DNA of 64,000 bases, from positions 186,001-250,000 of the forward strand of contig NZ_JAPNXS010000006.1 of assembly GCF_030397575.1 (NCBI RefSeq). The letters run 5' to 3'. The translations under genes and the position numbers were made by a program. Every line of letters begins with the position of its first letter. Position 1 is the first letter of the stretch. This document shows positions 35,974 through 51,534 of the stretch, piece by piece. Source of the stretch: Psychromonas sp. 14N.309.X.WAT.B.A12 (GTDB lineage: Bacteria > Pseudomonadota > Gammaproteobacteria > Enterobacterales > Psychromonadaceae). The notes beneath the pieces were generated by a model. It was not told the DNA's origin, made no database searches, and worked only from the letters and a program-made list of their open reading frames with translations.

Positions 35974-37002
35974 CTAGGCGATCAATTCTTGACGTATAAT
36001 TGCGGCGCCAGCACTAAGTGCATTTAATTTACCCAGTGCAACTTCACGTGATAAAGGTGCCATACCGCAGTTAGTACAAGGGTACAGTTTATCTGCATCC
36101 ACATATTTAAGTGCTTCTCTTAGAGTATTAGCGACTTCTTGCGGGGTTTCAATCACATTGCTTGCAACATCAATCGCTCCTACCATCACTTTTTTACCTC
36201 GAATAAGGGCTAGTAATTCCATTGGAACATGCGAGTTGTGACACTCCAAAGAGATAATATCAATGTTAGAGGCTTTCAATTTAGGGAAAACCGCTTCATA
36301 TTGACGCCATTCGTTACCTAATGTTTTCTTCCAGTCGGTATTGGCTTTAATGCCATATCCGTAACAAATGTGTACAGCAGTTTCACATTTAAGCCCTTCA
36401 ATGGCCCTTTCTAAACATGCAATCCCCCACTCATTTACTTCATCAAAAAACACATTAAAGGCCGGTTCATCAAATTGAATAATATCCACGCCTGCCGCTT
36501 CTAACTCTTTCGCTTCCTGATTAAGGATGATTGCAAATTGCCAAGCCAATTCTTTTCGGCTTTTATAATGATCATCATAAAGAGTGTCAATCATGGTCAT
36601 TGGCCCAGGTAAGGCCCATTTAATGGGTTGATCAGTTTGTTGACGTAAAAATTTCGCATCTTCAACAAATACTGATTTTTGTCGGCTAACGGGACCAATT
36701 ACAGTCGGTACACTCGCATCATATCGGTCACGAATTTTAACAATTTTACGGTTCTCAAAATCCACGCCATTAAGGTGCTCAATAAAGGTAGTCACAAAAT
36801 GCTGACGGGTTTGTTCGCCATCACTGACAATATCGATACCTGCAAGTTGCTGTTGGTGTAACGCTAAGCACAATGCATCTTTTTTACCATCAACTAATGT
36901 TTGTTCTTGTAGTTTCCACGGTGACCATAATGTTTCAGACTCTGCAAGCCAAGACGGTTTTGGCAAGCTGCCTGCCGTAGAAGTGGGTAATAATACTTTC
37001 AT
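35974..37002 (-). CDS. mesD: Core methionine synthase MesD
   Basis: 342 residues, equivalent to the C-terminal catalytic half of cobalamin-independent MetE. The zinc ligands are visible as His and Cys in VHICYGYG, Glu in SLECHNSH and Cys in PCTNCGMAP. MesD-type enzymes are short methionine synthases that lack the folate-binding N-terminal half of MetE and depend on the partner MesX, encoded 59 bases upstream on the same strand. Published work places MesD among folate-independent methionine synthases with an unknown methyl donor and an oxygen requirement. The ATG at 37002 is chosen over a TTG one codon earlier. Confidence 0.88.
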   Translation of the reverse strand: MKVLLPTSTAGSLPKPSWLAESETLWSPWKLQEQTLVDGKKDALCLALHQQQLAGIDIVSDGEQTRQHFVTTFIEHLNGVDFENRKIVKIRDRYDASVPTVIGPVSRQKSVFVEDAKFLRQQTDQPIKWALPGPMTMIDTLYDDHYKSRKELAWQFAIILNQEAKELEAAGVDIIQFDEPAFNVFFDEVNEWGIACLERAIEGLKCETAVHICYGYGIKANTDWKKTLGNEWRQYEAVFPKLKASNIDIISLECHNSHVPMELLALIRGKKVMVGAIDVASNVIETPQEVANTLREALKYVDADKLYPCTNCGMAPLSREVALGKLNALSAGAAIIRQELIA

Positions 37003-37061
37003 CAATATTCATCCTGTTTAGGGTATTTTATGTTAATTCTTTTACTGTTTTTATTGGGCTA

Positions 37062-38045
37062 TTAAGCAAAACAAGCTGGCTGGGTATCCAACTGTTCTAA
37101 TAACTTTTTATGTGGTTTGATGAAAAACTCCTCAGCAAACTTACCTTGTGCTATGCCTAATCGACTGCGCTCATCTCGGTCATATAAAATATGTGTTAAT
37201 GAATAATCTACATGCTTTAAATCAGGCTTATAAATATCACTAGCCACTGTATTGGCATTGTAAATTTCAGGTCGATAGATCTTCTGGAAAGTTTCCATCG
37301 TGCTAATGGTGCTGATTAGTTCCAGATTTGTGTAATCATTCAACAAATCCCCCATAAAGTAGAAAGCCAGTGGCGCTACCGCATTTTCAGGCATGAAATA
37401 ACGTACCTGTAAGCCCATCTTTCTAAAATATTGTTCCGTTAATGAGGAGGCATTAGGCTGATACTCAATACCTAATATCGGATGCTGATTACCTGTACGT
37501 TGATAGGTTTTAGTTTCCGCCACACTCAAACAAATAACCGGTTTTTTAATAAAGTATGCTTTATAAGCAGGAGAGTTTAAAAAAGACTTAAATAGCCTTC
37601 CATGCAGCTCACCAAAATTTTCAGGTACAGTGAATGAAGACTTACCTTTGTTATGTGCTGACAACAAAATACTAAAATCGTAATCACGTATATAAGATGA
37701 GAAATTGTTGCCAACAACCCCATCAATACGCAGCCCGCTTTGATGATCAACAATATTAGTTTTTAACATTTCAATGGAGGGAAAAGTTTGCATACTATTC
37801 TGAATATTCATTTCAACAGAAACGATTTCAAGTTCAACAGAGTAACGCTTTGCTTCAGCGTTATCCCAATGAGCTAAGCGATTAAATCGATTATCGATCA
37901 TCTTAAATGCGTTGCGTAAATTATGCTGGCGGTTTTCTCCACGAGCCAGATTAGCAAAGTTTGTTGTCGCTCGAGTGTTGTCTGCTGGCTGGTAATGCTC
38001 ATCTAAAGCAGTGCTGTTAACCGTAAATGTAAAATCTGTATTCAT
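37062..38045 (-). CDS. mesX: MesX (DUF1852), partner of MesD
   Basis: 327 residues, beginning MNTDFTFTVNS. It matches the DUF1852 family, which occurs next to short MetE-like proteins and is needed for their methionine synthase activity. No cofactor motif is obvious by eye. The ATG at 38045 has GGAG about 9 bases upstream and matches the family start; the frame upstream to 38084 is probably not translated. It is followed by mesD, so the pair forms an operon. A methionine-responsive operator (MetJ or MetR type) was not recognised upstream. Confidence 0.88.
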   Translation of the reverse strand: MNTDFTFTVNSTALDEHYQPADNTRATTNFANLARGENRQHNLRNAFKMIDNRFNRLAHWDNAEAKRYSVELEIVSVEMNIQNSMQTFPSIEMLKTNIVDHQSGLRIDGVVGNNFSSYIRDYDFSILLSAHNKGKSSFTVPENFGELHGRLFKSFLNSPAYKAYFIKKPVICLSVAETKTYQRTGNQHPILGIEYQPNASSLTEQYFRKMGLQVRYFMPENAVAPLAFYFMGDLLNDYTNLELISTISTMETFQKIYRPEIYNANTVASDIYKPDLKHVDYSLTHILYDRDERSRLGIAQGKFAEEFFIKPHKKLLEQLDTQPACFA

Positions 38046-38523
38046 CGTTTTTAGCTCCAATTGTCTATCATAAAATCTACACACTCCTTGTTTATTAAGA
38101 CTTCCTAGCCAATCCCCTTATTGGTATCTGAAACACCAAATAATAAAAGTCAGGGTAATATTGCCTAGCATTAAACAGCAGTAAGTATTTTATACGCCAA
38201 ATCAAACATGAACAAAAATGATTAATATTCAAATAAACATGAAAATAACTAATAAACAAAAATTAACGTGATTAACAACGATAAAACAGAACTGAGTACA
38301 ACACCTTTGTAAGATTGGATAGTGTTGGGCTTTTCTTTAATGAATTTTCTGATGTCATGTAACGCAGGAAACAATAGGCATTGAGAAAAATGTATCCTTT
38401 GCCCTCAAAACGTTATATTAAAAATGGACCTATTATTTGATACTTTTTCAAAATACGGCTCAACTGGTTTATATTGGATCATTATTGTAAGCCGTATTAA
38501 GCAGATAACTACAGGACAACTAT
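38046..38523. other. Divergent intergenic region mesX - thioredoxin-like gene
   Basis: 478 AT-rich bases with both promoters. I see no clear MetJ box (AGACGTCT), MetR site or riboswitch-like structure. Nothing else can be supported. Confidence 0.5.
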
Positions 38524-39411: not shown

Positions 39412-39459
39412 AAGCTTTATCTTGTGTCTCTTCTTTTAAAGCAACACTACATCTTGTGT
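39412..39459. promoter_or_regulatory. Pair of NrdR boxes upstream of nrdA
   Basis: ACACTACATCTTGTGT (39444-39459) matches the NrdR palindrome ACACWATATATWGTGT at 14 of 16 positions. A second site, AAGCTTTATCTTGTGT (39412-39427), matches 12 of 16. Start-to-start spacing is 32 bases, about three helix turns, as usual for NrdR pairs. NrdR represses ribonucleotide reductase genes when dATP is high. Confidence 0.75.
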
Positions 39460-39545
39460 TTTATTTGAACAACACACACTAGAGTAAAGACAGCCTAAAT
39501 AGCTAACATCTTTACTCTACTAACATCAAGCAAAGGCCTCTAAAA

Positions 39546-41816
39546 ATGAATAAAAACCTGTCTGTCACTAAGCGTAATGGGAAAAAAGAACCCATTGACC
39601 TTGATAAAATCCATCGCGTCATTACATGGGCAGCAGAAGGTTTAAACAACGTTTCAGTATCTCAGGTAGAGTTAAACTCTCATATTCAATTTTATGATGG
39701 TATTCGTACTGACGATATCCATGAAACGATCATTAAAGCCGCTGCTGATTTAATCTCTGAAGAGTCGCCAGATTACCAATATCTTGCTGCACATTTAGCA
39801 GTATTCCACTTACGTAAACGCGCTTACCAACGCTTTACACCACCAAGTGTATTCGAACACGTGAGTAAGATGGTTTCTAAAGGTAAATATGATGAACATT
39901 TACTAGAAGATTACACTAAGCAAGAGTTTGAAGAGATGGATCAATTTATTGATCACTCTCGTGATTTAAATTTCTCTTATGCAGCAGTAAAACAGCTGGA
40001 AGGTAAATACCTAGTACAGAACCGTGTAAGTGGTGAAATCTACGAAAGTGCACAGTTCTTATACCTAATGGTAGCGGCATGTTTATTCTCTGATTACGAT
40101 AAAGAAACTCGTTTAGATTATATTAAGCGTTTTTACGATGCGACGTCATTATTTAAGATTTCATTACCGACACCGATCATGTCTGGTGTGCGTACTCCGA
40201 CTCGTCAATTCAGCTCATGTGTATTAATTGAGACAGGCGATAGCCTAGACTCTATCAATGCAACGTCTAGCGCCATTGTTAAATACGTATCACAACGTGC
40301 TGGTATTGGTATTAATGCGGGCCGTATTCGTGCGATGGGCAGTAATATTCGTGGTGGTGAAGCTTACCACACGGGTTGTATTCCATTTTACAAACACTTC
40401 CAAACGGCTGTTAAATCTTGTTCACAAGGTGGCGTTCGTGGTGGTGCAGCAACTGTCTTCTACCCGATTTGGCACTTAGAAGTTGAATCATTACTGGTAT
40501 TGAAAAATAACCGTGGTATTGAATCAAACCGTGTTCGTCACCTTGATTACGGTGTACAACTTGGTCGTTTATTCTACCAACGCTTAATCGACAAAAAAGA
40601 GATCACACTATTCAGCCCTTCTGATACACCAGGGTTATACGATGCTTTCTTTGAAGACCAAGATGAGTTTGAGCGTTTATACCACCTATATGAAGCTGAT
40701 GAGTCAATCCGTAAGAGCTCAATTCCTGCGGTAGAGTTATTCTCTCTATTGATGCAAGAGCGTGCAAGTACAGGCCGTATTTACATTCAGAATGTTGACC
40801 ACTGTAATACACACAGTCCATTTGACAGTAAAGTAGCACCTGTACGCCAAAGTAACTTATGTTTAGAGATTGCGTTACCAACTAAACCATTAACGCATAT
40901 TAAAGATGAAGAAGGTGAAATCGCCCTTTGTACTTTATCTGCGATTAACTTAGGGGCAATTGAGTCATTAGATGAAATTGAAGAGTTATCAGAGCTTGCA
41001 GTAAGAGCACTGGATAACCTGTTAGATTACCAAGATTACCCAATTCTTGCGGCTGAAAAAAGCAGCATGAGCCGTCGTACTCTAGGTATAGGTGTAATCA
41101 ACTACGCTTACTACTTAGCGAAAAACGGCGTGAAATACTCTGACGGTAGTGCAAATAACCTAACGCATAGAGCATTTGAAGCAATTCAATACTACCTATT
41201 GAAAGCATCAAACAAGTTAGCTAAAGAACGTGGTGCTTGTGAGAAGTTTCATGAGACACGTTACTCACAAGGTATTTTACCGTTAGATAACTACAAAAAA
41301 TCGTTAGATGCAATTTGTGACGAAGGTTACCACTTAGATTGGGAGCAATTGCGCGCAGACATCGTTAAAGATGGTTTACGTAACTCAACCTTATCTGCCT
41401 TGATGCCTTCTGAAACATCAAGCCAAATTTCAAATGCAACTAACGGTATTGAGCCTCCACGTGGTTTCATTAGTGTTAAAGCGAGTAAAGATGGTATTTT
41501 GAAACAGGTTGTACCTGAATTTGATAAATACAAAGATCAATACGAATTATTATGGAGCATTCCAAATAATAAAGGTTATTTAGAACTAGTAGGTATCATG
41601 CAGAAGTTTGTTGATCAAGCTATCTCAGCAAATACAAACTATGATCCAAAACGTTTTGATGACGGTAAAGTACCAATGACGATTCTACTTAAAGACCTAT
41701 TAATGGCTTACAAGATGGGATTAAAAACACTGTACTACCATAATACACGCGATGGTGCAGATGATGAAAAAGTCATCGAAGATGATGGTTGTGCGGGCGG
41801 TGCTTGTAAAATATAA
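39546..41816 (+). CDS. nrdA: Class Ia ribonucleotide reductase, alpha subunit
   Basis: 756 residues (E. coli 761). It reduces ribonucleoside diphosphates to deoxy forms with NrdB. The N-terminal ATP cone (about residues 5-95, dATP activity site) is followed by the 10-stranded barrel with FSSCVLI (first redox Cys), SNLCLEIALP (Asn, Cys and Glu of the radical site) and IALCTLSAINL (second redox Cys). The C-terminal CAGGACKI holds the swinging Cys pair. Unlike the usual order, nrdB does not follow: a terminator and a seven-gene operon intervene. Confidence 0.98.
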   Translation: MNKNLSVTKRNGKKEPIDLDKIHRVITWAAEGLNNVSVSQVELNSHIQFYDGIRTDDIHETIIKAAADLISEESPDYQYLAAHLAVFHLRKRAYQRFTPPSVFEHVSKMVSKGKYDEHLLEDYTKQEFEEMDQFIDHSRDLNFSYAAVKQLEGKYLVQNRVSGEIYESAQFLYLMVAACLFSDYDKETRLDYIKRFYDATSLFKISLPTPIMSGVRTPTRQFSSCVLIETGDSLDSINATSSAIVKYVSQRAGIGINAGRIRAMGSNIRGGEAYHTGCIPFYKHFQTAVKSCSQGGVRGGAATVFYPIWHLEVESLLVLKNNRGIESNRVRHLDYGVQLGRLFYQRLIDKKEITLFSPSDTPGLYDAFFEDQDEFERLYHLYEADESIRKSSIPAVELFSLLMQERASTGRIYIQNVDHCNTHSPFDSKVAPVRQSNLCLEIALPTKPLTHIKDEEGEIALCTLSAINLGAIESLDEIEELSELAVRALDNLLDYQDYPILAAEKSSMSRRTLGIGVINYAYYLAKNGVKYSDGSANNLTHRAFEAIQYYLLKASNKLAKERGACEKFHETRYSQGILPLDNYKKSLDAICDEGYHLDWEQLRADIVKDGLRNSTLSALMPSETSSQISNATNGIEPPRGFISVKASKDGILKQVVPEFDKYKDQYELLWSIPNNKGYLELVGIMQKFVDQAISANTNYDPKRFDDGKVPMTILLKDLLMAYKMGLKTLYYHNTRDGADDEKVIEDDGCAGGACKI

Positions 41817-42178
41817 AATATAGAAATTTAATAATAATTCTATAAATCAAAAGGATGCCTCAAGGCATCCTTTTTTTTTTTGCTAAAAAACATCTTTTAT
41901 TTTTTGCATATTTGATAATCTCTCCTAAAGTAAATATACCTACAATTAAATACAAGCATTATTCACCCTTCATTACCCGCTTTTAAAAATTAATTGTAAT
42001 TATTTAAATAATTAAGAAATTAAATTAAATCTTCTCGGGTCTTGGTATGGGAGCTTTAAATAATGACGACATAAATTATTGCTCACACATACTAATAACG
42101 GACAACAACCCGCTTTTAATGCTTAGCAAGGACCATTTTTAAAGCATTAATGCGCATTGATATAAAGGCTAATAAACT
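41817..42178. other. Intergenic region between nrdA and the TVP38-reductase operon
   Basis: 362 bases holding the nrdA terminator, then AT-rich sequence. An inverted repeat TTAATGCTT (42116-42124) / AAGCATTAA (42142-42150) lies 29 bases before the operon start and could be an operator or a hairpin in the 5' leader. Confidence 0.5.
41850..41880 (+). terminator. Strong terminator after nrdA
   Basis: Stem AAAGGATGCC / GGCATCCTTT with loop TCAA, followed by a run of T. It lies 33 bases after the stop and separates nrdA from the next operon. Confidence 0.92.
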
Positions 42179-44332
42179 ATGTTAAAAAAGATCGTACTCT
42201 TGATACTAGCAATCGGATTAATAGGGTTGTTTTTCCACTTCAACCTACACCAATTGCTCACCCTTGAAGGGTTAAAAGGTTCAATGGATCAGTTCACTTC
42301 ATTACGTGAACAATCACCTGCTTTAGTGATTGGTGGTTTCTTTATTTTATATGTATTAGTGACTGCATTAGCATTGCCAGGTGCCGCTATTTTGACCTTA
42401 GCAGCAGGCGCACTGTTTGGTTTATTTGAAGGCTTAATCATTGCTTCATTTGCTTCTAGTATTGGTGCGCTGTGTTCGTTCTTAGTTTCACGCTACTTAT
42501 TACGTGATTCGCTGAAACAACGTTTTCCAGAACGTTTATCAGCTATTGATGAAGGGATCAAAAAAGAAGGTGCATTTTACTTATTCACTTTACGTTTAGT
42601 ACCTATCTTCCCATTCTTCCTAATCAATCTATTAATGGGTGTGACAGCACTTAAATCTTGGACTTTCTACTGGGTAAGCCAAATCGGTATGTTAGCTGGA
42701 ACCTTTATCTTCGTGAATGCAGGTACGCAACTAGCTAAAATCGATAGCCTGTCAGGTATCTTATCTTTTGGTTTAATCATCTCATTTGTTTTACTCGGTA
42801 TATTCCCACTTATTGCAAAAGGTATTGTTAATATGATTAAAAAACGTCAAGTCTATAAAAAATGGACTAAACCAGCTAAGTTTGACCGTAACATGGTTGT
42901 TATTGGTGCAGGCGCAGGCGGTCTAGTAACAAGTTACATTGCAGCAGCTGTTAAAGCTAAAGTAACTTTGGTTGAAGCCGGTGAAATGGGTGGTGACTGT
43001 CTAAACTATGGTTGTGTACCAAGTAAAGCCATCATCAAAAGCGCAAAAATTGCAGAGCAAATTAGAAATGCACACCATTACGGTTTAGAAGATACAACAC
43101 CGCAATTTTCATTCAAAAAAGTAATGGAGCGTGTACATCAAGTTGTTGCTGACGTTGCACCGCATGACAGTGTTGAACGTTACACTGATTTAGGTGTAGA
43201 AGTAGAAAAAGGTTACGCAAAAATTCTTGACCCTTGGACAGTAGAAATTAGCTACGAAGATGGTACTAAAAAGAAATTAACGACTCGTACTATTGTTATC
43301 GCAACTGGAGCTCGCCCATTTGTTCCACCACTACCAGGTATCGAAGAAACAGGTTATGTTACTAGTGATACGTTATGGACTGAGTTCGCTAAATTAGAAA
43401 CACCACCAGAGAAACTAGTGGTATTAGGCGGTGGTCCAATCGGTTCTGAATTAGCACAAAGCTTCGCTCGCTTAGGCTCGAACGTTACACAAATTGAGAT
43501 GGCAGAGCGCATCATGATCAAAGAAGATCTTGAGGTGTCTGAATTCGCTACCGAGTCATTAAAAGAGAGTGGCGTAAACATCTTAACCTCGCATCAAGCA
43601 TTACGTTGTGAAACAAAAGATGGTAAGAAATTTATCATTGTTAAACACAACGAAGAAGAGATTGAAATTGAATATGACCAATTATTATGTGCTGTAGGTC
43701 GTAGTGCACGTTTAACTGGTTACGGCTTAGAAGAACTTGGTATCGAAACTAACCGTACTATCGTTACCAACGAGTACTTAGAAACACTTTACCCTAACAT
43801 TTTTGCTGCTGGTGATATTGTTGGTCCTTACCAATTCACACATGTCGCTGCCCATCAAGGTTGGTACGCTGCAGTGAATGGTCTATTTGGTAACTTGAAG
43901 AAGTTTAAAGTGGATTACCGAGTAATTCCATGGACTACCTTTATCGACCCAGAAGTAGCACGTGTTGGTATTAATGAAGATGAAGCAAAACAAAAAGGTA
44001 TTGATTACGAAATCACTCGCTTTGATTTTGAAGAACTAGACCGAGCGATCACAGACAGCGCAACCAAAGGTTTCATCAAAGTCATTACACCAAAAGGTAA
44101 AGATAAGATCTTAGGTGTGACGATTGTTTCTGAACATGCCGGAGACTTAATTGCTGAGTTTGTATTAGCAATGAAACACGGTTTAGGTCTAAACAAAATA
44201 TTAGGTACGATCCACAGTTACCCAACATGGGCTGAAGGTAATAAGTACGCAGCTGGTGAATGGAAGCGAAATCATGCGCCACAAACGGTTCTAAATTGGT
44301 TAGAGAAATACCATACATGGAGACGCGGCTAA
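42179..44332 (+). CDS. TVP38/TMEM64 membrane domain fused to a flavin disulfide reductase
   Basis: 717 residues, two proteins in one. Residues 1-225 are a TVP38/DedA-like (VTT) membrane domain with about six helices and the family core LALPGAAILTLAAGALFG; this fold is linked to lipid scrambling and membrane homeostasis. From residue 239 a complete pyridine-nucleotide disulfide oxidoreductase follows: FAD site VVIGAGAGGL, redox pair C274/C279 in GGDCLNYGCVPSK, NAD(P) site VVLGGGPIGSELAQSF, FAD contact FAAGDIVG and C-terminal HSYPTWAE, the active-site His-Glu. It lacks the N-terminal metal-binding domain and C-terminal Cys pair of MerA. It is first in the operon; the next gene overlaps by one base. 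Substrate unknown. Confidence 0.9.
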   Translation: MLKKIVLLILAIGLIGLFFHFNLHQLLTLEGLKGSMDQFTSLREQSPALVIGGFFILYVLVTALALPGAAILTLAAGALFGLFEGLIIASFASSIGALCSFLVSRYLLRDSLKQRFPERLSAIDEGIKKEGAFYLFTLRLVPIFPFFLINLLMGVTALKSWTFYWVSQIGMLAGTFIFVNAGTQLAKIDSLSGILSFGLIISFVLLGIFPLIAKGIVNMIKKRQVYKKWTKPAKFDRNMVVIGAGAGGLVTSYIAAAVKAKVTLVEAGEMGGDCLNYGCVPSKAIIKSAKIAEQIRNAHHYGLEDTTPQFSFKKVMERVHQVVADVAPHDSVERYTDLGVEVEKGYAKILDPWTVEISYEDGTKKKLTTRTIVIATGARPFVPPLPGIEETGYVTSDTLWTEFAKLETPPEKLVVLGGGPIGSELAQSFARLGSNVTQIEMAERIMIKEDLEVSEFATESLKESGVNILTSHQALRCETKDGKKFIIVKHNEEEIEIEYDQLLCAVGRSARLTGYGLEELGIETNRTIVTNEYLETLYPNIFAAGDIVGPYQFTHVAAHQGWYAAVNGLFGNLKKFKVDYRVIPWTTFIDPEVARVGINEDEAKQKGIDYEITRFDFEELDRAITDSATKGFIKVITPKGKDKILGVTIVSEHAGDLIAEFVLAMKHGLGLNKILGTIHSYPTWAEGNKYAAGEWKRNHAPQTVLNWLEKYHTWRRG

Positions 44333-45180
44333 TGAAATCAGCAATCCAACACACAACCAATAAGGTAAGCGCCCTAGTGCGCTTCACCTTAGGAGCAGCA
44401 ATATTAAGTGGTTCAATGCTCAGCACAGCTTATGCTGAAACCAGCGGCAACTTACACAGTACTTGGACAAATTTATTGGCAGAGCATATTACGCCAGTCA
44501 ACCAAGGCCATAGTACTGCAGTTGATTATGCAGGCTTTAAGCAACAAGAAGATACATTACAAACTTACTTAGATACGTTAGCTGAAACAACACGCACAGA
44601 ATTTGATGGATGGTCAAAAGAGAAGCAATTAGCTTTTTTGATCAATGCTTACAATGCATGGACAGTTGAATTTATCTTAACGAAGTACCCTGACTTAGAT
44701 TCAATTAAAGACTTAGGTAGTTTGTTTAACTCACCATGGGACAAAGAGTTTGTACCATTGTTAGGCAAAACAGTGAGTCTAAATGATATTGAACATGGTC
44801 TCATTCGTGGTAGTGGTCGCTACAACGATCCACGAATCCACTTTGCAGTAAACTGTGCAAGTATTGGTTGCCCAGCACTACGTGAAGAGGCTTATACGGC
44901 GGATAAGTTGGAACAACAATTAACCCAACAAACCGAGCGTTTTTTAACTGATTCAAGCCGTAATTACATTAAAGGTAACAATATCTACCTGTCATCTATT
45001 TTTAAATGGTATGACGAAGATTTTGAAACGGGATTTCGAGGAACGAAATCTATCCAGGGCTTTATAAACTTATATGTTGATGCACTGCAATTAACTGAAG
45101 AGCAACAATCGACACTTAAAAATCAAAAGTTTAAAGTTAAATATTTAGATTATGATTGGAATCTTAATGCTATCCGTTAA
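44332..45180 (+). CDS. DUF547 exported protein
   Basis: 282 residues from the ATG at 44332, which overlaps the previous stop (TAATG) and has GGAG 9 bases upstream. A signal peptide (about residues 1-37, ending AYA) precedes the DUF547 domain: KEKQLAFLINAYNAWTVEFI, RGSGRYNDPRIHFAVNCASIGCPAL and FKWYDEDF. The family is predicted to be periplasmic, with an unknown fold role; the AxNCASxxCP segment is its most conserved part. Its position links the membrane reductase to the ABC importer genes that follow. Confidence 0.88.
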   Translation: MKSAIQHTTNKVSALVRFTLGAAILSGSMLSTAYAETSGNLHSTWTNLLAEHITPVNQGHSTAVDYAGFKQQEDTLQTYLDTLAETTRTEFDGWSKEKQLAFLINAYNAWTVEFILTKYPDLDSIKDLGSLFNSPWDKEFVPLLGKTVSLNDIEHGLIRGSGRYNDPRIHFAVNCASIGCPALREEAYTADKLEQQLTQQTERFLTDSSRNYIKGNNIYLSSIFKWYDEDFETGFRGTKSIQGFINLYVDALQLTEEQQSTLKNQKFKVKYLDYDWNLNAIR

Positions 45181-46447
45181 TAAAATTTGCCAGCATAGTT
45201 TTGCTGGCTTTTATAAAGCACTTTGTTATTTATTACTTCTATTAATACCCCAACAAGCCTTATTTGCCTCGGAGTCGCAGTCTAATGCTGCGGCGATGTG
45301 GGAAAATATTGAAATGCGAGGCACTCAACAGAGTGTCTACTTTCATGCTTGGGGCGGTGATCAGCAAATAAATAATTATATTCAATGGGTTGCTAAGCAA
45401 GTGAAGCAACAATATGACATTGACCTACACCATGTGAAACTCACCGATACCAGTGAAGCGGTAAGCCGGGTGCTCGCTGAAAAATCAGCCAGTAATCACC
45501 GTAACGGTCAAGTTGATTTAGTTTGGATCAACGGAGCCAACTTTGCTTCTATGGCCAAACATAAATTATTAGCCTTAGACTGGGCTGATAAACTCCCTAA
45601 TTTTGCTCTTACTAACCCAGAAAACAACCCAGCCATGACGCGTGACTTTGGTGTACCAACCGAAGGAATGGAAGCTCCCTGGGGACAAGCAGCCCTAACC
45701 TTCTATTATGACAGCCTAAAAGTGGAACAACCTCCACAAACATTAGCAGAATTACTAAGCTGGACAAAACAACACCCTGGTCGATTTACTTACCCTAAAC
45801 CACCTGAATTTTTAGGAATGAGCTTTTTAAAATATGCCTTAATTATTTTAAATGAGAATCAGCCCGATAATATTAAAGATAAACTTTACCAAGCGGCTAC
45901 TCCAGAAAGTGAAGCGCAAACCTTGCCTGCTCTATGGAATTTTTTAGATGAACTACATCCAAACCTATGGCGTCAAGGCCATCATTTCGTTGCTAATGGG
46001 CTGGCCTTACGTCGTTTAAGTGGGGATGGCGAACTGCAAGTTTCCTTTACTTTCTCAGCAGCAGAAATTCCTTCAGCTATTGCACGTTATGATCTACCTG
46101 ATAGCACTCGTAGCTATCGTATGCTTGATGGAAGTTTAAGTAATATTCATTTTGTTGCTATTCCCTATAACTCACCACATTTAGACAGTGCTAAATTAGT
46201 GGCGAACTTCTTACTTAGTCCTAAAGCACAGGCTAAAAAGCAGCAAACTTCAGTATGGGGAGATAGTAGTGTGCTAGATTTATCGCAACTTTCCCCAACA
46301 CAACATGCTTACTTCGATATGACCGAAAAGCGACACTTAAGTGCAAATATCATTAATGTTGATAACACACGCCTATTAAGTGAGTTGCACCCAAGCTGGT
46401 CTGCGGTGATCACTAAGCAATGGCTTGCCCGTTATGGAGTACAATAA
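45167..46447 (+). CDS. ynjB: YnjB-type ABC transporter substrate-binding protein
   Basis: 426 residues. A signal sequence (about residues 1-34, ending FAS) is followed by a type-2 periplasmic binding protein like E. coli YnjB, which belongs to the thiamine/iron/spermidine-like group. Conserved pieces are VDLVWINGANFASM, APWGQAALTFYYD and SLSNIHFVAIP. The frame also has an ATG at 45152; I chose 45167 because GGA lies 8 bases before it. It overlaps the DUF547 gene by 14 bases and its stop overlaps ynjC. The ligand is unknown in any organism I know of. Confidence 0.9.
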   Translation: MLSVNKICQHSFAGFYKALCYLLLLLIPQQALFASESQSNAAAMWENIEMRGTQQSVYFHAWGGDQQINNYIQWVAKQVKQQYDIDLHHVKLTDTSEAVSRVLAEKSASNHRNGQVDLVWINGANFASMAKHKLLALDWADKLPNFALTNPENNPAMTRDFGVPTEGMEAPWGQAALTFYYDSLKVEQPPQTLAELLSWTKQHPGRFTYPKPPEFLGMSFLKYALIILNENQPDNIKDKLYQAATPESEAQTLPALWNFLDELHPNLWRQGHHFVANGLALRRLSGDGELQVSFTFSAAEIPSAIARYDLPDSTRSYRMLDGSLSNIHFVAIPYNSPHLDSAKLVANFLLSPKAQAKKQQTSVWGDSSVLDLSQLSPTQHAYFDMTEKRHLSANIINVDNTRLLSELHPSWSAVITKQWLARYGVQ

Positions 46448-48153
46448 TGATTGTTGCTAACACGTTTTTTACCCGCACCGTTCGCACTAGCCCAATGGTA
46501 ATGATCGCCCTACTAGTTGTTCCTGTATTGGGTGGATTATTAGGTGTGTTATTACCCGCGTTTGGTTGGTTCCCTGCATTAGGCGCGACTGAGTTTGGTT
46601 TATTTGGTTTTACAGAGTTATTTGCAACACCTGGCATTGAGCGAATGTTACTACTGAGTTACGGTACAAGTTTAATTAGTACTCTATTAGCTTTCCTTAT
46701 TACGGTGTTAATACTCGCCAGTTATTTTAATAGCCCATGGTTAAAACGTATTCAACGTTTATTGGGCCCTATTTTAGTTATCCCACATGCTGCTGCCGCC
46801 ATTGCGATTGGTTTTTTAATTGCCCCTTCAGGTTTTTTATCGCGCCTTTTCTCACCATGGTTAACGGGTTGGGATACACCACCAGATTGGTTATTTCCGC
46901 ATGACCCTTATGGCTTAAGTATCATTTTAGGCTTAGCCTTAAAAGAGTTACCGTTTTTATTGTTAATTGCATTGGGAGTGCTCGCTCAACCGGAAATAGG
47001 TAAAGTCCTCAAGCAACAACACAAGGTAGCTTCAAGCCTAGGTTATTGCCCAATGACAGGCTTCTTTAAAGTCATCCTACCTAGTTTATACGGTTACATG
47101 CGTTTACCGATTTTAGCCGTACTCGCTTATTCAAGTGCGAGTGTAGAGATCCCATTAATCCTTGGGCCAAACACACCACCAACATTGGCTGTTGCGATCA
47201 TGCAATGGTTTAGTGATGTAGATTTAAGCTTACGTATCAAAGCTTCATCAGGTGCTATCGTGCAAATTCTTGTGACCCTTTCACTGCTATTAACTTGGTG
47301 GGGAATTGAATTATTAGTGAAGAAATGCAGTGCCTCTTGGTTAACCAATGGAGCGCGCGAACATGGCGGCATGATCATCAAACGCTTTACTGATGTTATT
47401 ACCTTCATTATGGTGAGCACTATTGCTTTAGCTCTCCTAGGCATGGTGTTTTGGTCTTTTGCAGGTTTTTGGTCTTACCCAAACCTGCTGCCCGATCAAT
47501 TTATGACGATGCATTGGCAATCTGCGTTAACACAAATGCAAACACCTTTATTTAATACCTTGGTGATTGCCTTTAGCAGTACCCTACTAGCCATTATATT
47601 AACGCTGTTAGCATTAGAGTCTGAACAGCAAAGCAATAAAACCATTTCAGCTGTCAGCGGGTTAATTATCTACCTGCCTTTGTTGATCCCGAGTATTGCT
47701 TTCTTATTTGGACTGGTGTGGATGTTTGAGCAAGTAAATAGCCAACACACCTATTTAAATGTGGTATTCGCTCATCTTCTGTTTGTTTTACCTTATGTAT
47801 TTTTATCATTAGCCAATAGTTACCGTCGATTGGATCCACGCTTTAGTTCGGTGGCAGCCAGTTTAGGAGCCTCTCCTTCTAAAATATTCTGGCAGTTAAA
47901 ATTACCTTTATTAATATCGCCTATTTTGATCGCCAGTGCCTTAGGGTTAGCCATTAGCTTTAGTCAATATTTACCAACGCTATTAGCTGGTGCAGGTCGA
48001 ATTAATACCATTACTACCGAAGCGGTAACATTAGCAAATGGGGCGAGTCGACGCACCAGTGCGGTTTATGCATTAATGCAAATGTTACTGCCCGCTTTAT
48101 TCTTTATTTTAGCTTGGTTAACACCGAAAATTTTCTCACGTGCACGTGTATAG
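46447..48153 (+). CDS. ynjC: YnjC-type fused ABC permease
   Basis: 568 residues with about twelve membrane helices, two permease domains in one chain (about 60-285 and 365-565), as in E. coli YnjC. Each has an EAA-type cytoplasmic loop: VASSLGYCPMTGFFKVILP in the first and VAASLGASPSKIFWQLKLP in the second. The ATG at 46447 overlaps the ynjB stop (TAATG) and has GGAG 7 bases upstream. It moves the unknown ligand delivered by YnjB, powered by YnjD. Confidence 0.92.
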   Translation: MIVANTFFTRTVRTSPMVMIALLVVPVLGGLLGVLLPAFGWFPALGATEFGLFGFTELFATPGIERMLLLSYGTSLISTLLAFLITVLILASYFNSPWLKRIQRLLGPILVIPHAAAAIAIGFLIAPSGFLSRLFSPWLTGWDTPPDWLFPHDPYGLSIILGLALKELPFLLLIALGVLAQPEIGKVLKQQHKVASSLGYCPMTGFFKVILPSLYGYMRLPILAVLAYSSASVEIPLILGPNTPPTLAVAIMQWFSDVDLSLRIKASSGAIVQILVTLSLLLTWWGIELLVKKCSASWLTNGAREHGGMIIKRFTDVITFIMVSTIALALLGMVFWSFAGFWSYPNLLPDQFMTMHWQSALTQMQTPLFNTLVIAFSSTLLAIILTLLALESEQQSNKTISAVSGLIIYLPLLIPSIAFLFGLVWMFEQVNSQHTYLNVVFAHLLFVLPYVFLSLANSYRRLDPRFSSVAASLGASPSKIFWQLKLPLLISPILIASALGLAISFSQYLPTLLAGAGRINTITTEAVTLANGASRRTSAVYALMQMLLPALFFILAWLTPKIFSRARV

Positions 48154-48161
48154 GAACGTAT

Positions 48162-48812
48162 ATGAAATCAATAACAATACCGTCACTGGTTATCGAAAAA
48201 TTACAATTAAAACAGAAAGATAAAGTACTCTTATCGCTAGACGAAGAAATTATTGGCGGACAAGTACTGACCATAATGGGACCGTCAGGTAGCGGTAAAT
48301 CTACTTTACTGAATTGGTTAGTCGGTATGTTACCAAGCAGCTTTGATGCAACAGGTAAACTCTACTTAAATGGTGCTGATGTTTCTCAAATATCTAGCCA
48401 CCAGCGTCATATTGGACTTTTATATCAAGACCCATTGCTGTTTCCTCATTTGACAGTGGAAGGCAACATCGCCTTTGCAATGCCAAAAGGTAACAAACAA
48501 GATAGGCTTGATGAGATCAGCGATGCTTTAAAACAGGTAGGCTTAAGTGGCATGGAAAAACGCTGCCCACAAAGCTTGTCGGGCGGCCAACAAGCACGTG
48601 TTGCACTATTACGAGTTTTATTGAGTAAGCCCAAAGCAATCCTTTTAGATGAACCTTTTAGTAAACTGGATAGCCAACTCCGTCAAGAAACACGTCAGCT
48701 TGTGTTTGATGAAATTCAACGTCATAGTCTACCCGCAGTAATGGTGACACATGATGAGAGCGATGCCATTGCAGCACAGGGTAAAGTGATTACCTTAGAC
48801 AAGTTAATTTAA
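48162..48812 (+). CDS. ynjD: YnjD-type ABC transporter ATPase
   Basis: 216 residues, a complete nucleotide-binding domain: Walker A GPSGSGKST, Q-loop YQDPLLFPHLTV, signature LSGGQQARVALLR, Walker B AILLDEPFSKLD and H-loop VTHDE. AGGA precedes the ATG at 48162, 8 bases after ynjC, so the upstream extension of the frame is not used. It completes a B-C-D importer set. Confidence 0.95.
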   Translation: MKSITIPSLVIEKLQLKQKDKVLLSLDEEIIGGQVLTIMGPSGSGKSTLLNWLVGMLPSSFDATGKLYLNGADVSQISSHQRHIGLLYQDPLLFPHLTVEGNIAFAMPKGNKQDRLDEISDALKQVGLSGMEKRCPQSLSGGQQARVALLRVLLSKPKAILLDEPFSKLDSQLRQETRQLVFDEIQRHSLPAVMVTHDESDAIAAQGKVITLDKLI

Positions 48813-48832
48813 TCGTAGCAAACGGGAAGTCG

Positions 48833-49465
48833 ATGTTAGATAGATTTATCACACCAGTTATCAAACCACTGTTAATGCCAGTGGTAAAAACCTTGGACAA
48901 ACGTGGTGTCACACCAGATCAAGTAACCTTAGTTGGCTTCTTTATCGGCATCATAGCAGTCCCCTTACTGGCCAATAAAATGTGGACGGCTGCATTAGTG
49001 ATGATTGTGATTAACCGTATTCTAGATGGGTTAGATGGAGCCTTAGCACGTTATCAAAACAACAGTACCAGTGCTGGCGGTTTTTTAGATATCTGTGTGG
49101 ATTTCTTATTTTATGCGGCAATCCCAGTTGGATTTGCAATGGCTGAACCAGAATTTAACGCACTGCCTGCTGCGGTATTACTAGCCGTATTTATTGGTAC
49201 TGGTTCTACTTTTTTAGCCTTTGCTATTCCCGCTGAAAAGCTCAACCTAGACAGACCACAATTTGCCAATAAAAGCTTCTATTTCATCAATGGATTAACA
49301 GAAGGCACTGAAACTATCGCCTTTTTTGTGGCATTTTGTATTTGGCCACAATACTTCCCAGCCTTGGCTTACCTCTTTGCTTTACTGGGTGCGATGACAG
49401 TGTTTACAAGGATTCATGGTGGCTATAAAACATTAAAGTCGCACCAAGTAAGTAATCAGGAATAA
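48833..49465 (+). CDS. ynjF: YnjF-type CDP-alcohol phosphatidyltransferase
   Basis: 210 residues, about six membrane helices. The CDP-alcohol phosphatidyltransferase signature is complete: DGLDGALAR, then G and two Asp in GGFLDICVD. Enzymes of this class swap CMP on CDP-diacylglycerol for an alcohol, making phospholipid head groups. E. coli YnjF, encoded next to ynjE and ynjBCD, is an uncharacterised member; this is the same linkage. It begins 20 bases after ynjD. The alcohol substrate is not known; it could be supplied by the importer, which is speculation. Confidence 0.9.
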   Translation: MLDRFITPVIKPLLMPVVKTLDKRGVTPDQVTLVGFFIGIIAVPLLANKMWTAALVMIVINRILDGLDGALARYQNNSTSAGGFLDICVDFLFYAAIPVGFAMAEPEFNALPAAVLLAVFIGTGSTFLAFAIPAEKLNLDRPQFANKSFYFINGLTEGTETIAFFVAFCIWPQYFPALAYLFALLGAMTVFTRIHGGYKTLKSHQVSNQE

Positions 49466-49467
49466 AT

Positions 49468-50280
49468 ATGGTTGATGATGCTCAGCTCAGGCTAATTATT
49501 TTTATTACTATTTTAGCGGTGATGTTTACCGTAGAAAGGTTATTCCCTGCGCGTCAGTTACCTACTAAACCGTCAGCCCCTTCACAAAAAATGCGTTTAA
49601 CTGGTAACTTTGGCATCGTATTTATATCTGGTTTATCAGCAAGGTTGATATTCCCATTAGGCTTAATGGGCTTAGCTTTATTTTTTACTGAACAAAATAT
49701 AGGGTTATTCAACCTCGTTGATCTCCCAGAGTGGTTAGTGATTACTTTAAGCTTATTACTCTTGGATATGCTTATTTATTGGCAGCACCGCCTATTCCAC
49801 AAAATCCCTTTATTATGGCAACTACACAAAGTACACCACGCAGACACACATGTAGACAGCAGTACTGGATTACGTTTTCATCCTTTAGAGATTATTGCCA
49901 GCTTAGTGATTAAAGGGGTTGCCATTTTTATCTTTGGTATTCCTGCTTTTGCGGTCATTTTATTTGAAGTGTTACTCAATGGCTTTGCGCTGTTTAACCA
50001 CGCGAATATTCGTTTACCTGCCAAAGTAGAAGCAGTTACCCGCCTGATTTTAATGACCCAAATTTTACATCGCATTCATCACAGTCAATTATTCAAAGAG
50101 AGTAATTCAAACTTTGGTTTTAGTGTCATTTGGTGGGACCGTTTATTCGGTAGCTACTCTGCGCAAGCTACAAAACCAGACCTAGAGATTGATATCGGTA
50201 TTACAGAGTTTCCTGATGCGAAGGACAATGCGCATTTATGGGGATTATTGAGCATGCCGTTTAAGCGAAGAAATAAATAA
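49468..50280 (+). CDS. Membrane fatty-acid hydroxylase / sterol desaturase family protein
   Basis: 270 residues with about five membrane helices and the di-iron histidine pattern of the family: HRLFH (about residue 107), HKVHH (about 120), HANIR and HRIHHS (about 198). These enzymes hydroxylate or desaturate lipids or other hydrophobic substrates using oxygen. The ATG follows the ynjF stop after 2 bases with AGGAAT in front, so it is the last gene of the operon. Substrate unknown; a lipid made by the preceding transferase is a reasonable guess. Confidence 0.88.
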   Translation: MVDDAQLRLIIFITILAVMFTVERLFPARQLPTKPSAPSQKMRLTGNFGIVFISGLSARLIFPLGLMGLALFFTEQNIGLFNLVDLPEWLVITLSLLLLDMLIYWQHRLFHKIPLLWQLHKVHHADTHVDSSTGLRFHPLEIIASLVIKGVAIFIFGIPAFAVILFEVLLNGFALFNHANIRLPAKVEAVTRLILMTQILHRIHHSQLFKESNSNFGFSVIWWDRLFGSYSAQATKPDLEIDIGITEFPDAKDNAHLWGLLSMPFKRRNK

Positions 50281-50388
50281 AGCCAGACTTTTTTAGGATA
50301 AAAATAAAAACAAATTTAAACTAAAGCAGTGATCGAATCGTAGTAAGTTGCTAAGATACGCGAAATTAGAATTCTGACGGAGAGTCAC

Positions 50389-51534
50389 ATGGCTTACACA
50401 ACTTTCTCTACCCTTTCCAACGATGCAATGAAAGAACCTATGTTCTTTGGTAACCCGGTTAACGTGGCTCGTTATGACCAACAAAAATTTGAAGTATTTG
50501 AAAAATTAATCGAAAAACAGTTATCGTTCTTCTGGCGCCCAGAAGAGATTGACGTAAGCCGCGATCGCATTGATTTTTTAAACTTACCAGATCACGAACA
50601 ACATATCTTCATTTCAAATTTGAAGTACCAAACGCTTTTAGATTCAATTCAAGGTCGTAGTCCTAACATGGCATTACTGCCTATTGTTTCGTTACCTGAA
50701 TTAGAAACTTGGATCGAAACATGGTCTTTCTCTGAAACAATTCACAGTCGTAGTTACACGCATATTCTGCGTAATCTATTTACTGACCCAAATGAAGTGT
50801 TTGAAGATATCGTCAATAATGATGAAATTCAAAAGCGTGCTACTGATATCTCATTTTATTACGATGGTTTAATTCATGCAGTGCAATTTATGCAACTGCA
50901 CGGCTTAGAGCAAAATGAAGTTGCTTACGTTAATCTTGATGGTAAAACAGAAAAATTAACATTACGTGATATTAAAAAGAAACTGTATCTATGTGTTTGT
51001 TCTATCAATGCACTAGAAGCGATTCGTTTTTACGTATCATTTGCTTGTTCGTTTGCCTTTGCAGAGCGTGATTTATTAGAAGGCAATGCCAAAATTATCA
51101 AGCTAATTGCACGTGATGAAGCATTGCACCTAAACTCAACACAGCAAATGCTGAACCTTTGGGCTGATGGTAAAGATGATCCAGAAATGGCTGAAATCGC
51201 TATTGAATGTTTTGCTGAAGGTCGTGACATCTTCTTAAAAGCGGCAGAGCAAGAAAAAGAATGGGCACAATACCTATTTAAAGATGGTTCAATGATTGGT
51301 CTTAATGAAGAAATTCTATGCCAATATGTTGAATACATTGCAAATCAACGTATGCAAGCGATTGGCTATGAAGCACCATTTACAGTTAAGAGCAACCCAA
51401 TTCCATGGATTAACCACTGGTTAGTCAGTGACAATGTTCAAGTAGCACCGCAAGAAGCTGAAATCAGCTCTTACTTAGTAGGTCAAATCAACAGTACTGT
51501 TGATAGTGAAGACTTAAGCACCTTTGAACTATAA
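50389..51534 (+). CDS. nrdB: Class Ia ribonucleotide reductase, beta subunit
   Basis: 381 residues, colinear with E. coli NrdB. It houses the diferric-tyrosyl radical cofactor. Ligands and radical Tyr are in [14 protein letters not shown] (Glu, His and Tyr at about 116-123) and in [11 protein letters not shown]. The C-terminal tail STFEL docks to NrdA. GGAGAG lies 4 bases before the ATG. It is about 8.6 kb from nrdA, and the 108-base leader does not show an NrdR box like the one at nrdA. Confidence 0.98.

Follow-up and report, generated by a model that had tools for sequence, protein, structure and literature searches.

Two Joined Modules Link the YnjBCD Importer to a VTT-Flavoprotein and a CDP-Alcohol Phosphatidyltransferase in a Seven-Gene Operon of Psychromonas and Other Marine Genera

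Results and Discussion

A 64,000-nucleotide window of the genome of Psychromonas sp. 14N.309.X.WAT.B.A12 (GCF_030397575.1, contig NZ_JAPNXS010000006.1, positions 186,001 to 250,000; "the window" denotes this whole stretch) contains, at 42179-50280 on the + strand, a seven-gene operon that joins the importer YnjBCD to a membrane flavoprotein (gene 1, the VTT-reductase or simply the reductase), a DUF547 protein, the phosphatidyltransferase YnjF, and a hydroxylase-superfamily protein. Gene content and order recur in other marine genera, and the operon is composed of two joined modules, reductase-DUF547 and YnjBCD-YnjF-hydroxylase. As a tentative reading, the operon could serve the uptake of a sugar- or polyol-phosphate-like compound, its processing at the membrane, and its joining to a lipid.

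Operon layout

The initial annotation described seven same-strand genes that overlap or are separated by 20 nt or less. The open reading frame (ORF) list bears this out once the start codons are adjusted against the ORFs and the sequence: the largest intergenic gap is 20 nt, and the remaining genes overlap or lie closer. Genes 1 and 2 meet in a TAATG at 44330-44334, genes 2 and 3 overlap by 14 nt (YnjB ATG at 45167, DUF547 stop at 45178-45180), and genes 3 and 4 again share a TAATG (46445-46449); genes 4/5, 5/6, and 6/7 are separated by 8, 20, and 2 nt. The families named at the outset were also recovered by profile matches:

42179..44332, +, gene 1, VTT (TVP38/DedA) membrane domain fused to a MerA/lipoamide-dehydrogenase-like flavoprotein, 717 aa; profile matches
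44332..45180, +, gene 2, DUF547 protein with an N-terminal signal-like segment; domain match, alignment A3
45167..46447, +, gene 3, YnjB solute-binding protein; NF008633, 488 bits (cut-off 203); structure model pLDDT 91
46447..48153, +, gene 4, YnjC fused ABC permease (BPD_transp_1); profile matches, E. coli homologue
48162..48812, +, gene 5, YnjD ABC ATPase; profile matches, E. coli homologue
48833..49465, +, gene 6, YnjF CDP-alcohol phosphatidyltransferase (CDP-OH_P_transf); PF01066, invariant motif
49468..50280, +, gene 7, fatty-acid-hydroxylase-superfamily membrane protein (FA_hydroxylase); PF04116, invariant His

Conservation and linkage

Conservation was examined in 80 named loci, the best 80 of at least 583 confirmed YnjB relatives, a set that leans toward close relatives. 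Genes in fetched loci were called with a codon-score caller and labeled by BLASTP against the window and reference proteins. All seven genes are present in the same order and on the same strand in 10 of the 80 loci, from Psychromonas, Shewanella, Pseudoalteromonas (four), Colwellia, Pseudocolwellia, Salinimonas, and Alteromonas. One-strand partners across the 80 are the reductase (35 loci), YnjF (22), the hydroxylase (14), DUF547 (10), and a TonB receptor (9); Psychrobacter loci lack DUF547, and some lack the hydroxylase as well. Eight same-genus loci, selected for an adjoining reductase and YnjB with a DUF547-sized gap, all carry the seven genes in the same order between nrdA and nrdB (one of them, L148, is from the genome of named locus L042). 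The full set also occurs in nine loci of two other families (L158-L160, L166-L171). The remaining 14 same-genus genomes sampled comprise five without YnjB and reductase at the thresholds used, six that were read and have another arrangement, two (G468, G537) with both genes apart by position, and one (G518) in which the set is split. Among nine Psychromonas-type sequences, dN/dS is at most 0.13 where defined (for YnjD, dS was finite in only one of eight comparisons), and gene 1 evolves as slowly as nrdA, with a dN of 0.005 to L147 for both.

Outside the genus, every one of the 18 full-set loci read (nine named loci, L158-L160, and L166-L171), some of which may be from the same species, has a TonB receptor directly 5′ of gene 1; among the named loci, this amounts to 9 of the 10 with the full set. 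The receptor is also upstream in L157, L161, and L162, each of which lacks one gene. L039 and L040, two loci of a single genome, have a receptor belonging to the same BLAST cluster, placed between DUF547 and a distantly related YnjB (30-32%). Against the TonB siderophore receptor model, the receptor found upstream of gene 1 scores 95 bits, under the cut-off of 223. The Psychromonas genome itself gave no match elsewhere to the Shewanella copy in a search made without a positive control.

The survey of co-occurrence called for by the initial annotation argues against independent assortment of the genes. In an order-level sample of 295 genomes (YnjB at E ≤1e-30; reductase at a score of at least 559 bits), YnjB is present in 104, the reductase in 88, and both in 79, as compared to 31 expected when related genomes are counted as independent. 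The 88 leave out G382, whose match of 587 bits is cut by contig ends. In 45 of these genomes the reductase gene immediately precedes YnjB in the same orientation.

Several other YnjBCD neighborhoods were encountered. In two alphaproteobacteria (L107:7851-9889 and L110:7766-9885), YnjBCD is directly preceded by genes for a kinase-like protein and a radical SAM/SPASM-type protein; the domain of the latter was checked in L110. L037 and L112 place YnjBCDF beside what we take, from sequence, to be DoxX, DUF692/DUF2063/DUF2282-like, and P-type ATPase genes, presumably a bufferin-like set. The Halomonas locus L069 has YnjB, YnjC, YnjD, and the VTT-reductase each broken into several reading frames, suggestive of sequencing errors or decay.

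Modularity

That the operon is two joined modules follows from a split locus, a difference in codon adaptation, and frequent hairpins at the border. In G518, of the same genus, reductase-DUF547 lies between nrdA and nrdB (the L140/L139 split), and a different hydroxylase-YnjBCD-YnjF set sits elsewhere in the genome. Codon adaptation, with gyrA, mreB, serC, and asnB as the reference, is 0.68 for gene 1, 0.62 for gene 2, and 0.51-0.57 for genes 3-7 (nrdA, 0.70; nrdB, 0.72). At the DUF547/YnjB border (44332-45300 and its counterparts in relatives), simple hairpins of unrelated sequence are present in 12 of 16 loci, and a T-rich tail follows the hairpin in the window, L145, L147, L046, and L047. 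In the window this feature reads:

45189..45208, +, hairpin and T-run directly 3′ of the DUF547 stop, within the YnjB start; exact sequence only in the window and L147

Folding z-scores of the border range from +1.1 to -4.9, with 9 of 16 below -2.8 and no control windows taken elsewhere in the genes; the stretch also encodes the YnjB signal segment. The hairpin may be a break or attenuator between the modules, a point at which their expression differs. The initial annotation had proposed a conserved, undescribed pathway. The conserved linkage stands, and the accessible literature describes no function for it, but a single pathway of seven genes is too strong a claim because DUF547, the hydroxylase, and YnjF are optional among the 80 loci, G518 splits the set, and codon adaptation drops between DUF547 and YnjB.

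Domains and motifs

Gene 1 combines a VTT domain (PF09335) with Pyr_redox_2/Pyr_redox_dim in a profile search. Its CXXXXC motif and its nucleotide-binding and dimerization domains place it in the class I flavoprotein disulfide reductase superfamily, and C274, C279, and Y681 are invariant in 22 of 22 homologues. Disulfide reductases carry a catalytic His before Pro-Thr, and MerA has a functional C-terminal Cys pair. At the position of this His in E. coli Lpd and Gor, gene 1 has a Tyr, which it has in common with Polaromonas MerA (alignment A7). Gene 1 thus resembles MerA in pairing CXXXXC with a Tyr at the His position; unlike MerA, it lacks the C-terminal Cys pair and the heavy-metal domain in the same alignment, has an added VTT domain, and scores under the cut-off of the MerA model TIGR02053 (387 vs 454 bits). 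Its score against the dihydrolipoyl dehydrogenase model TIGR01350 is likewise under the cut-off (399 vs 409 bits). The accessible text of one study describes VTT proteins as lipid scramblases or flippases and VTT with PF07992/PF02852 as the commonest COG0398 fusion, in a subfamily tied to aerobic metabolism (PMC10127716). These COG0398 DedA proteins have the same domain fusion as gene 1, and that text gives neither operon context nor substrate for them.

YnjB belongs to the family modeled by NF008633, and its best match among named genomes is in Psychromonas arctica (75%). The structure model resembles an uncharacterized Bordetella protein (3pu5) and lies near sugar, hexose-phosphate, aminoethylphosphonate, and glycerophosphodiester binders. 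Reading the ligand from solved structures was tried and abandoned: the sequence searches gave marginal matches, at best weak hits to binders of aminoethylphosphonate, iron, and polyamines, and the fold comparison left many ligand classes tied. The permease and ATPase score weakly with the PhnU/PhnV/PhnT, ThiP, and Pot families, far under the cut-offs.

The DUF547 protein is probably periplasmic, judging by eye from its N-terminal signal-like segment. Its structure model (pLDDT 79.5) gave no Foldseek match at E ≤0.001 and a best VIA-align Z of 4.3, to 14-3-3 proteins; a papain- or transglutaminase-like enzyme was considered, and these fold searches returned no match to such enzymes. YnjF contains the CDP-alcohol phosphotransferase motif DxxDGxxAR(x8)GxxxDxxxD intact, with D65, D68, G69, A72, R73, G82, D86, and D90 invariant in 18 of 18 sequences, and its nearest solved relatives are AF2299 and inositol-phosphate transferases. 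Gene 7 has the PF04116 domain and the His-box pattern of the fatty acid hydroxylase superfamily, and H107, H111, H120, H123, H124, H201, H204, and H205 are invariant in 15 of 15 sequences; its score against the ornithine lipid hydroxylase OlsE model is far under the cut-off (NF052566, 82 vs 475 bits).

The E. coli counterpart

The match to the E. coli ydjXYZ-ynjABCD/ynjF region noted initially holds, with identities of 31% for the VTT protein, 40% for YnjB, 43% for YnjC, 45% for YnjD, and 58% for YnjF. The E. coli region differs in lacking a flavoprotein fused to VTT, DUF547, and the hydroxylase; it has instead a ferredoxin-type YdjY, a second VTT protein (YdjZ), YnjA, and YnjE, with ynjF on the opposite strand. 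Loci ordered YnjA-VTT-reductase-YnjB-C-D-F form a bridge from the ydj-ynj layout of E. coli to the marine operon. Six of them, from one family (L173, L174, L175, L176, L178, and L180), have a DUF1499 protein before the set (tested in L173 only).

As far as the accessible parts of these sources go, FNR activates E. coli ydjXYZ-ynjABCD and ynjE (PMC3688515), BaeR raises ynjA and ynjB slightly (PMC2731931), and ydjX is listed as an uncharacterized transporter (PMC10971958). A review table puts YnjB beside polyamine binding proteins (PMC9397018), and a cold-brine Marinobacter clade is enriched in YnjBCD genes (PMC9207381). E. coli ynjC is annotated as thiamine/sulfate type, and a ynjC variant alters the colistin fitness of laboratory E. 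coli by an unknown mechanism and with an unknown substrate (PMC9184624). Both ynjB and ynjC occur in screen tables (PMC13131330, PMC9405208, PMC11495030). The portions of open-licence PMC full texts seen contain no established function for YnjBCD or the VTT-reductase.

Proposed role of the operon

These features allow us to outline a possible route, in which the direction of flow and the order of reactions are as we infer them. In the uptake module, a TonB-dependent receptor (in genera other than Psychromonas) would carry a scarce compound over the outer membrane, DUF547 would act on it in the periplasm, YnjB would bind it, and YnjC/YnjD would import it; the compound would most likely be a small molecule resembling a sugar or polyol phosphate. 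In the membrane module, the VTT-flavoprotein, whose Cys pair would be redox-active and whose catalytic His is replaced by Tyr, would be an NAD(P)H enzyme anchored in the membrane and would act on the imported compound or its lipid-linked form, presumably either before or after lipid attachment. YnjF would transfer the phospho-alcohol onto a lipid via CDP-diacylglycerol, and the hydroxylase would modify the lipid. The initial suggestion that the importer supplies a head group is in this respect plausible and fits the intact YnjF motif and its inositol-phosphate-type nearest solved relatives, though no ligand was identified.

The compound may be obtained in another way where the importer is missing. 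TIGR04283, a glycosyltransferase family named for arsenosugars, is found in 14 of the 295 order genomes, all 14 of which have the reductase in fused, split, or contig-cut form; this count includes G382 and G288 (427 bits, cut), and in G288 and G537 only the flavoprotein part is seen. All 11 order genomes with a reductase and without YnjB carry TIGR04283. Because importer-less relatives in the same order have this glycosyltransferase, the data suggest that the compound can be either made or imported. In the class, we compared 45 reductase genomes (every second by score of the 89 outside the window) with 35 controls hand-picked from listed rows: TIGR04283 is present in 37 of the 45 vs 17 of the 35 (Fisher p 0.002, relatedness uncorrected). 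Three of the eight reductase genomes without TIGR04283 have YnjB, and five have neither. A weaker reductase relative (260-440 bits) occurs in 19 of the 35 controls, 12 of these with TIGR04283, as compared to 5 of the 16 others. An absolute rule that the reductase needs YnjB or TIGR04283 was rejected; it holds in the order sample and fails in the class test.

Halomonads bring these parts together in one cluster, kinase-YnjBCD-TIGR04283-TIGR04282-VTT-reductase-TIGR03169, whose completeness varies by locus. Like the seven-gene operon, it keeps importer and VTT-reductase together; sugar-type transferases and a kinase stand where the operon has YnjF, DUF547, and the hydroxylase. One extension, which we regard as quite improbable, is that YnjBCD is a salvage route for the product of a TIGR04283/TIGR04282 sugar pathway. 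The product would be made in the cell or taken up via the TonB receptor, DUF547, and YnjBCD; the marine YnjF would anchor it as a phospholipid, and the Tyr-type VTT-flavoprotein would act on it either way.

A number of observations weigh against uptake of a sugar- or polyol-phosphate-like compound and its joining to a lipid. Iron, polyamine, and metal-citrate binders are also among the YnjB fold matches, so the fold does not fix the ligand, and lower cationic dye uptake upon deletion of E. coli ynjC, cited in the accessible text of PMC9184624, better suits a cation. The DUF547 model is without a match to solved folds in Foldseek and VIA-align. YnjBCD stands without any partner from the tested list in 28 of the 80 named loci, and 25 of the 104 order genomes with YnjB yielded no fused reductase. 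In the class, the reductase has a much broader distribution than YnjB and is not dependent on the importer, since among 274 class genomes it is present in 90, many of these matches spanning the flavoprotein part only, as compared to YnjB above the cut-off in 9, with 7 shared. The TonB receptor is missing from many loci with an adjoining reductase and YnjB (Psychromonas, Psychrobacter, L153-L156, L173-L180), the last two groups lacking DUF547 as well. TIGR04283 is present in nearly half of the class controls, and both it and YnjB are absent from 5 of the 45 class reductase genomes, two of which are 86% and 58% complete. Arsenosugar genes were sought in the genome of the window and discarded as candidates: TIGR04282 gave no match at E 0.001 and TIGR04283 no match at E 1e-30, and the best ArsS match (TIGR04167) there is 43 bits vs a cut-off of 300.

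Alternative explanations

The operon could instead import a nutrient of known type, such as a polyamine, thiamine, or 2-aminoethylphosphonate, with the membrane enzymes merely co-regulated envelope genes. The weak similarity of YnjB to binders of aminoethylphosphonate, iron, and polyamines with solved structures, the weak permease and ATPase scores, the loci in which YnjBCD has no listed partner, and the thiamine/sulfate annotation and dye phenotype of ynjC in the accessible text of PMC9184624 are consistent with this explanation. The family scores are, however, far under the cut-offs, and the linkage with the reductase and YnjF is conserved; we consider nutrient import of this kind unlikely, if a serious competitor.

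A second alternative is metal or metalloid handling, in which gene 1, acting like MerA, would reduce a metal(loid) bound to thiols, and a metal complex would be taken up through the TonB receptor and YnjBCD. The MerA-like Tyr and the receptor's similarity, below the cut-off, to siderophore receptors point this way, as do several reductase neighborhoods: L129 and L130 contain ArsS, L138 has a methyltransferase resembling ArsM (under the cut-off) close to a split VTT and reductase, and L126 has copper-type genes, recognized by reading the sequences. Yet gene 1 lacks the MerA C-terminal Cys pair and heavy-metal domain and falls short of the MerA model, ArsS occurs in only 6 of the 295 order genomes, all of one genus and none with YnjB, and the lipid enzymes would be left unexplained. 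This explanation appears rather improbable.

Envelope or lipid-asymmetry repair, slightly less probable still, would have a lipid flipped by VTT and then remodeled by YnjF and the hydroxylase, with YnjBCD taking back the head groups set free. It agrees with the scramblase/flippase activity ascribed to VTT proteins (PMC10127716), the slight BaeR effect on ynjA and ynjB (PMC2731931), and the colistin fitness of the ynjC variant, its mechanism unknown (PMC9184624), and is countered by FNR activation of the E. coli unit (PMC3688515), each as given in the accessible text.

Genomic setting between nrdA and nrdB

The nrdA and nrdB flanks, the nrdA terminator, and the upstream TonB receptor of full-set loci outside the genus go beyond the initial annotation. 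The features around the operon are the following:

39546..41816, +, nrdA, flank outside the operon; NF006578, over model cut-off
41849..41874, +, intrinsic terminator 3′ of nrdA; terminator scan
42038..42058, +, candidate regulatory site, conserved non-coding element GGTCTTTATGT..GAGCTATC 5′ of gene 1; locus comparison
50389..51534, +, nrdB, flank outside the operon; NF006576, over model cut-off

That the nrdA-nrdB position merely holds the genes together, expressed with ribonucleotide reductase and saying nothing of a shared pathway, would suit the eight genus loci and the nrdA-like codon adaptation of gene 1, but it is refuted as a full explanation, and is highly improbable, because the same cluster and gene order occur away from nrd genes; the terminator between nrdA and gene 1 also opposes it.

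A hairpin followed by T's is found 3′ of nrdA in nine genus relatives too, its sequence diverged and its pairing kept. Because of the terminator and these matching hairpins, the operon probably has its own promoter and is not transcribed from that of nrdA. A sigma-70 scan did not establish a promoter, giving fewer matches than shuffled sequence (21 vs 38.6). The element GGTCTTTATGT..GAGCTATC is present in the genus loci at the nrdA position and scores far lower in other loci searched. A dedicated regulon built on it was rejected: the genome yields only its own site, and a reversed control pattern also gives one match. Control by a riboswitch or structured RNA was likewise set aside, as Rfam at gathering thresholds returned only a tRNA within the window. 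By eye, the 108-nt gap 5′ of nrdB contains a TTGTTAGTATAC-like stretch that is alike in most relatives.

As side observations, an unrelated 8.1-kb operon, with flanking gaps at 41817-42178 and 50281-50388 in the window, parts nrdA from nrdB there and in eight relatives. Repeats 5′ of nrdA near 39440-39480 look, by eye, like what we take to be NrdR boxes. At 35974-38084 (- strand), a MetE-like methionine synthase adjoins a DUF1852-like protein, a pair that we presume to resemble MesD/MesX.

Implications

In this operon YnjBCD, listed as uncharacterized or orphan in the literature seen, is tied to one particular membrane flavoprotein and to a lipid transferase; other marine genera add a receptor of the outer membrane. 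This linkage, together with the order-level alternation with a glycosyltransferase pathway, narrows the search for the YnjBCD ligand. If salvage of a TIGR04283/TIGR04282 pathway product were true, it would provide a ligand class for the orphan E. coli transporter and an assembly enzyme for arsenosugar-type or related phospholipids.

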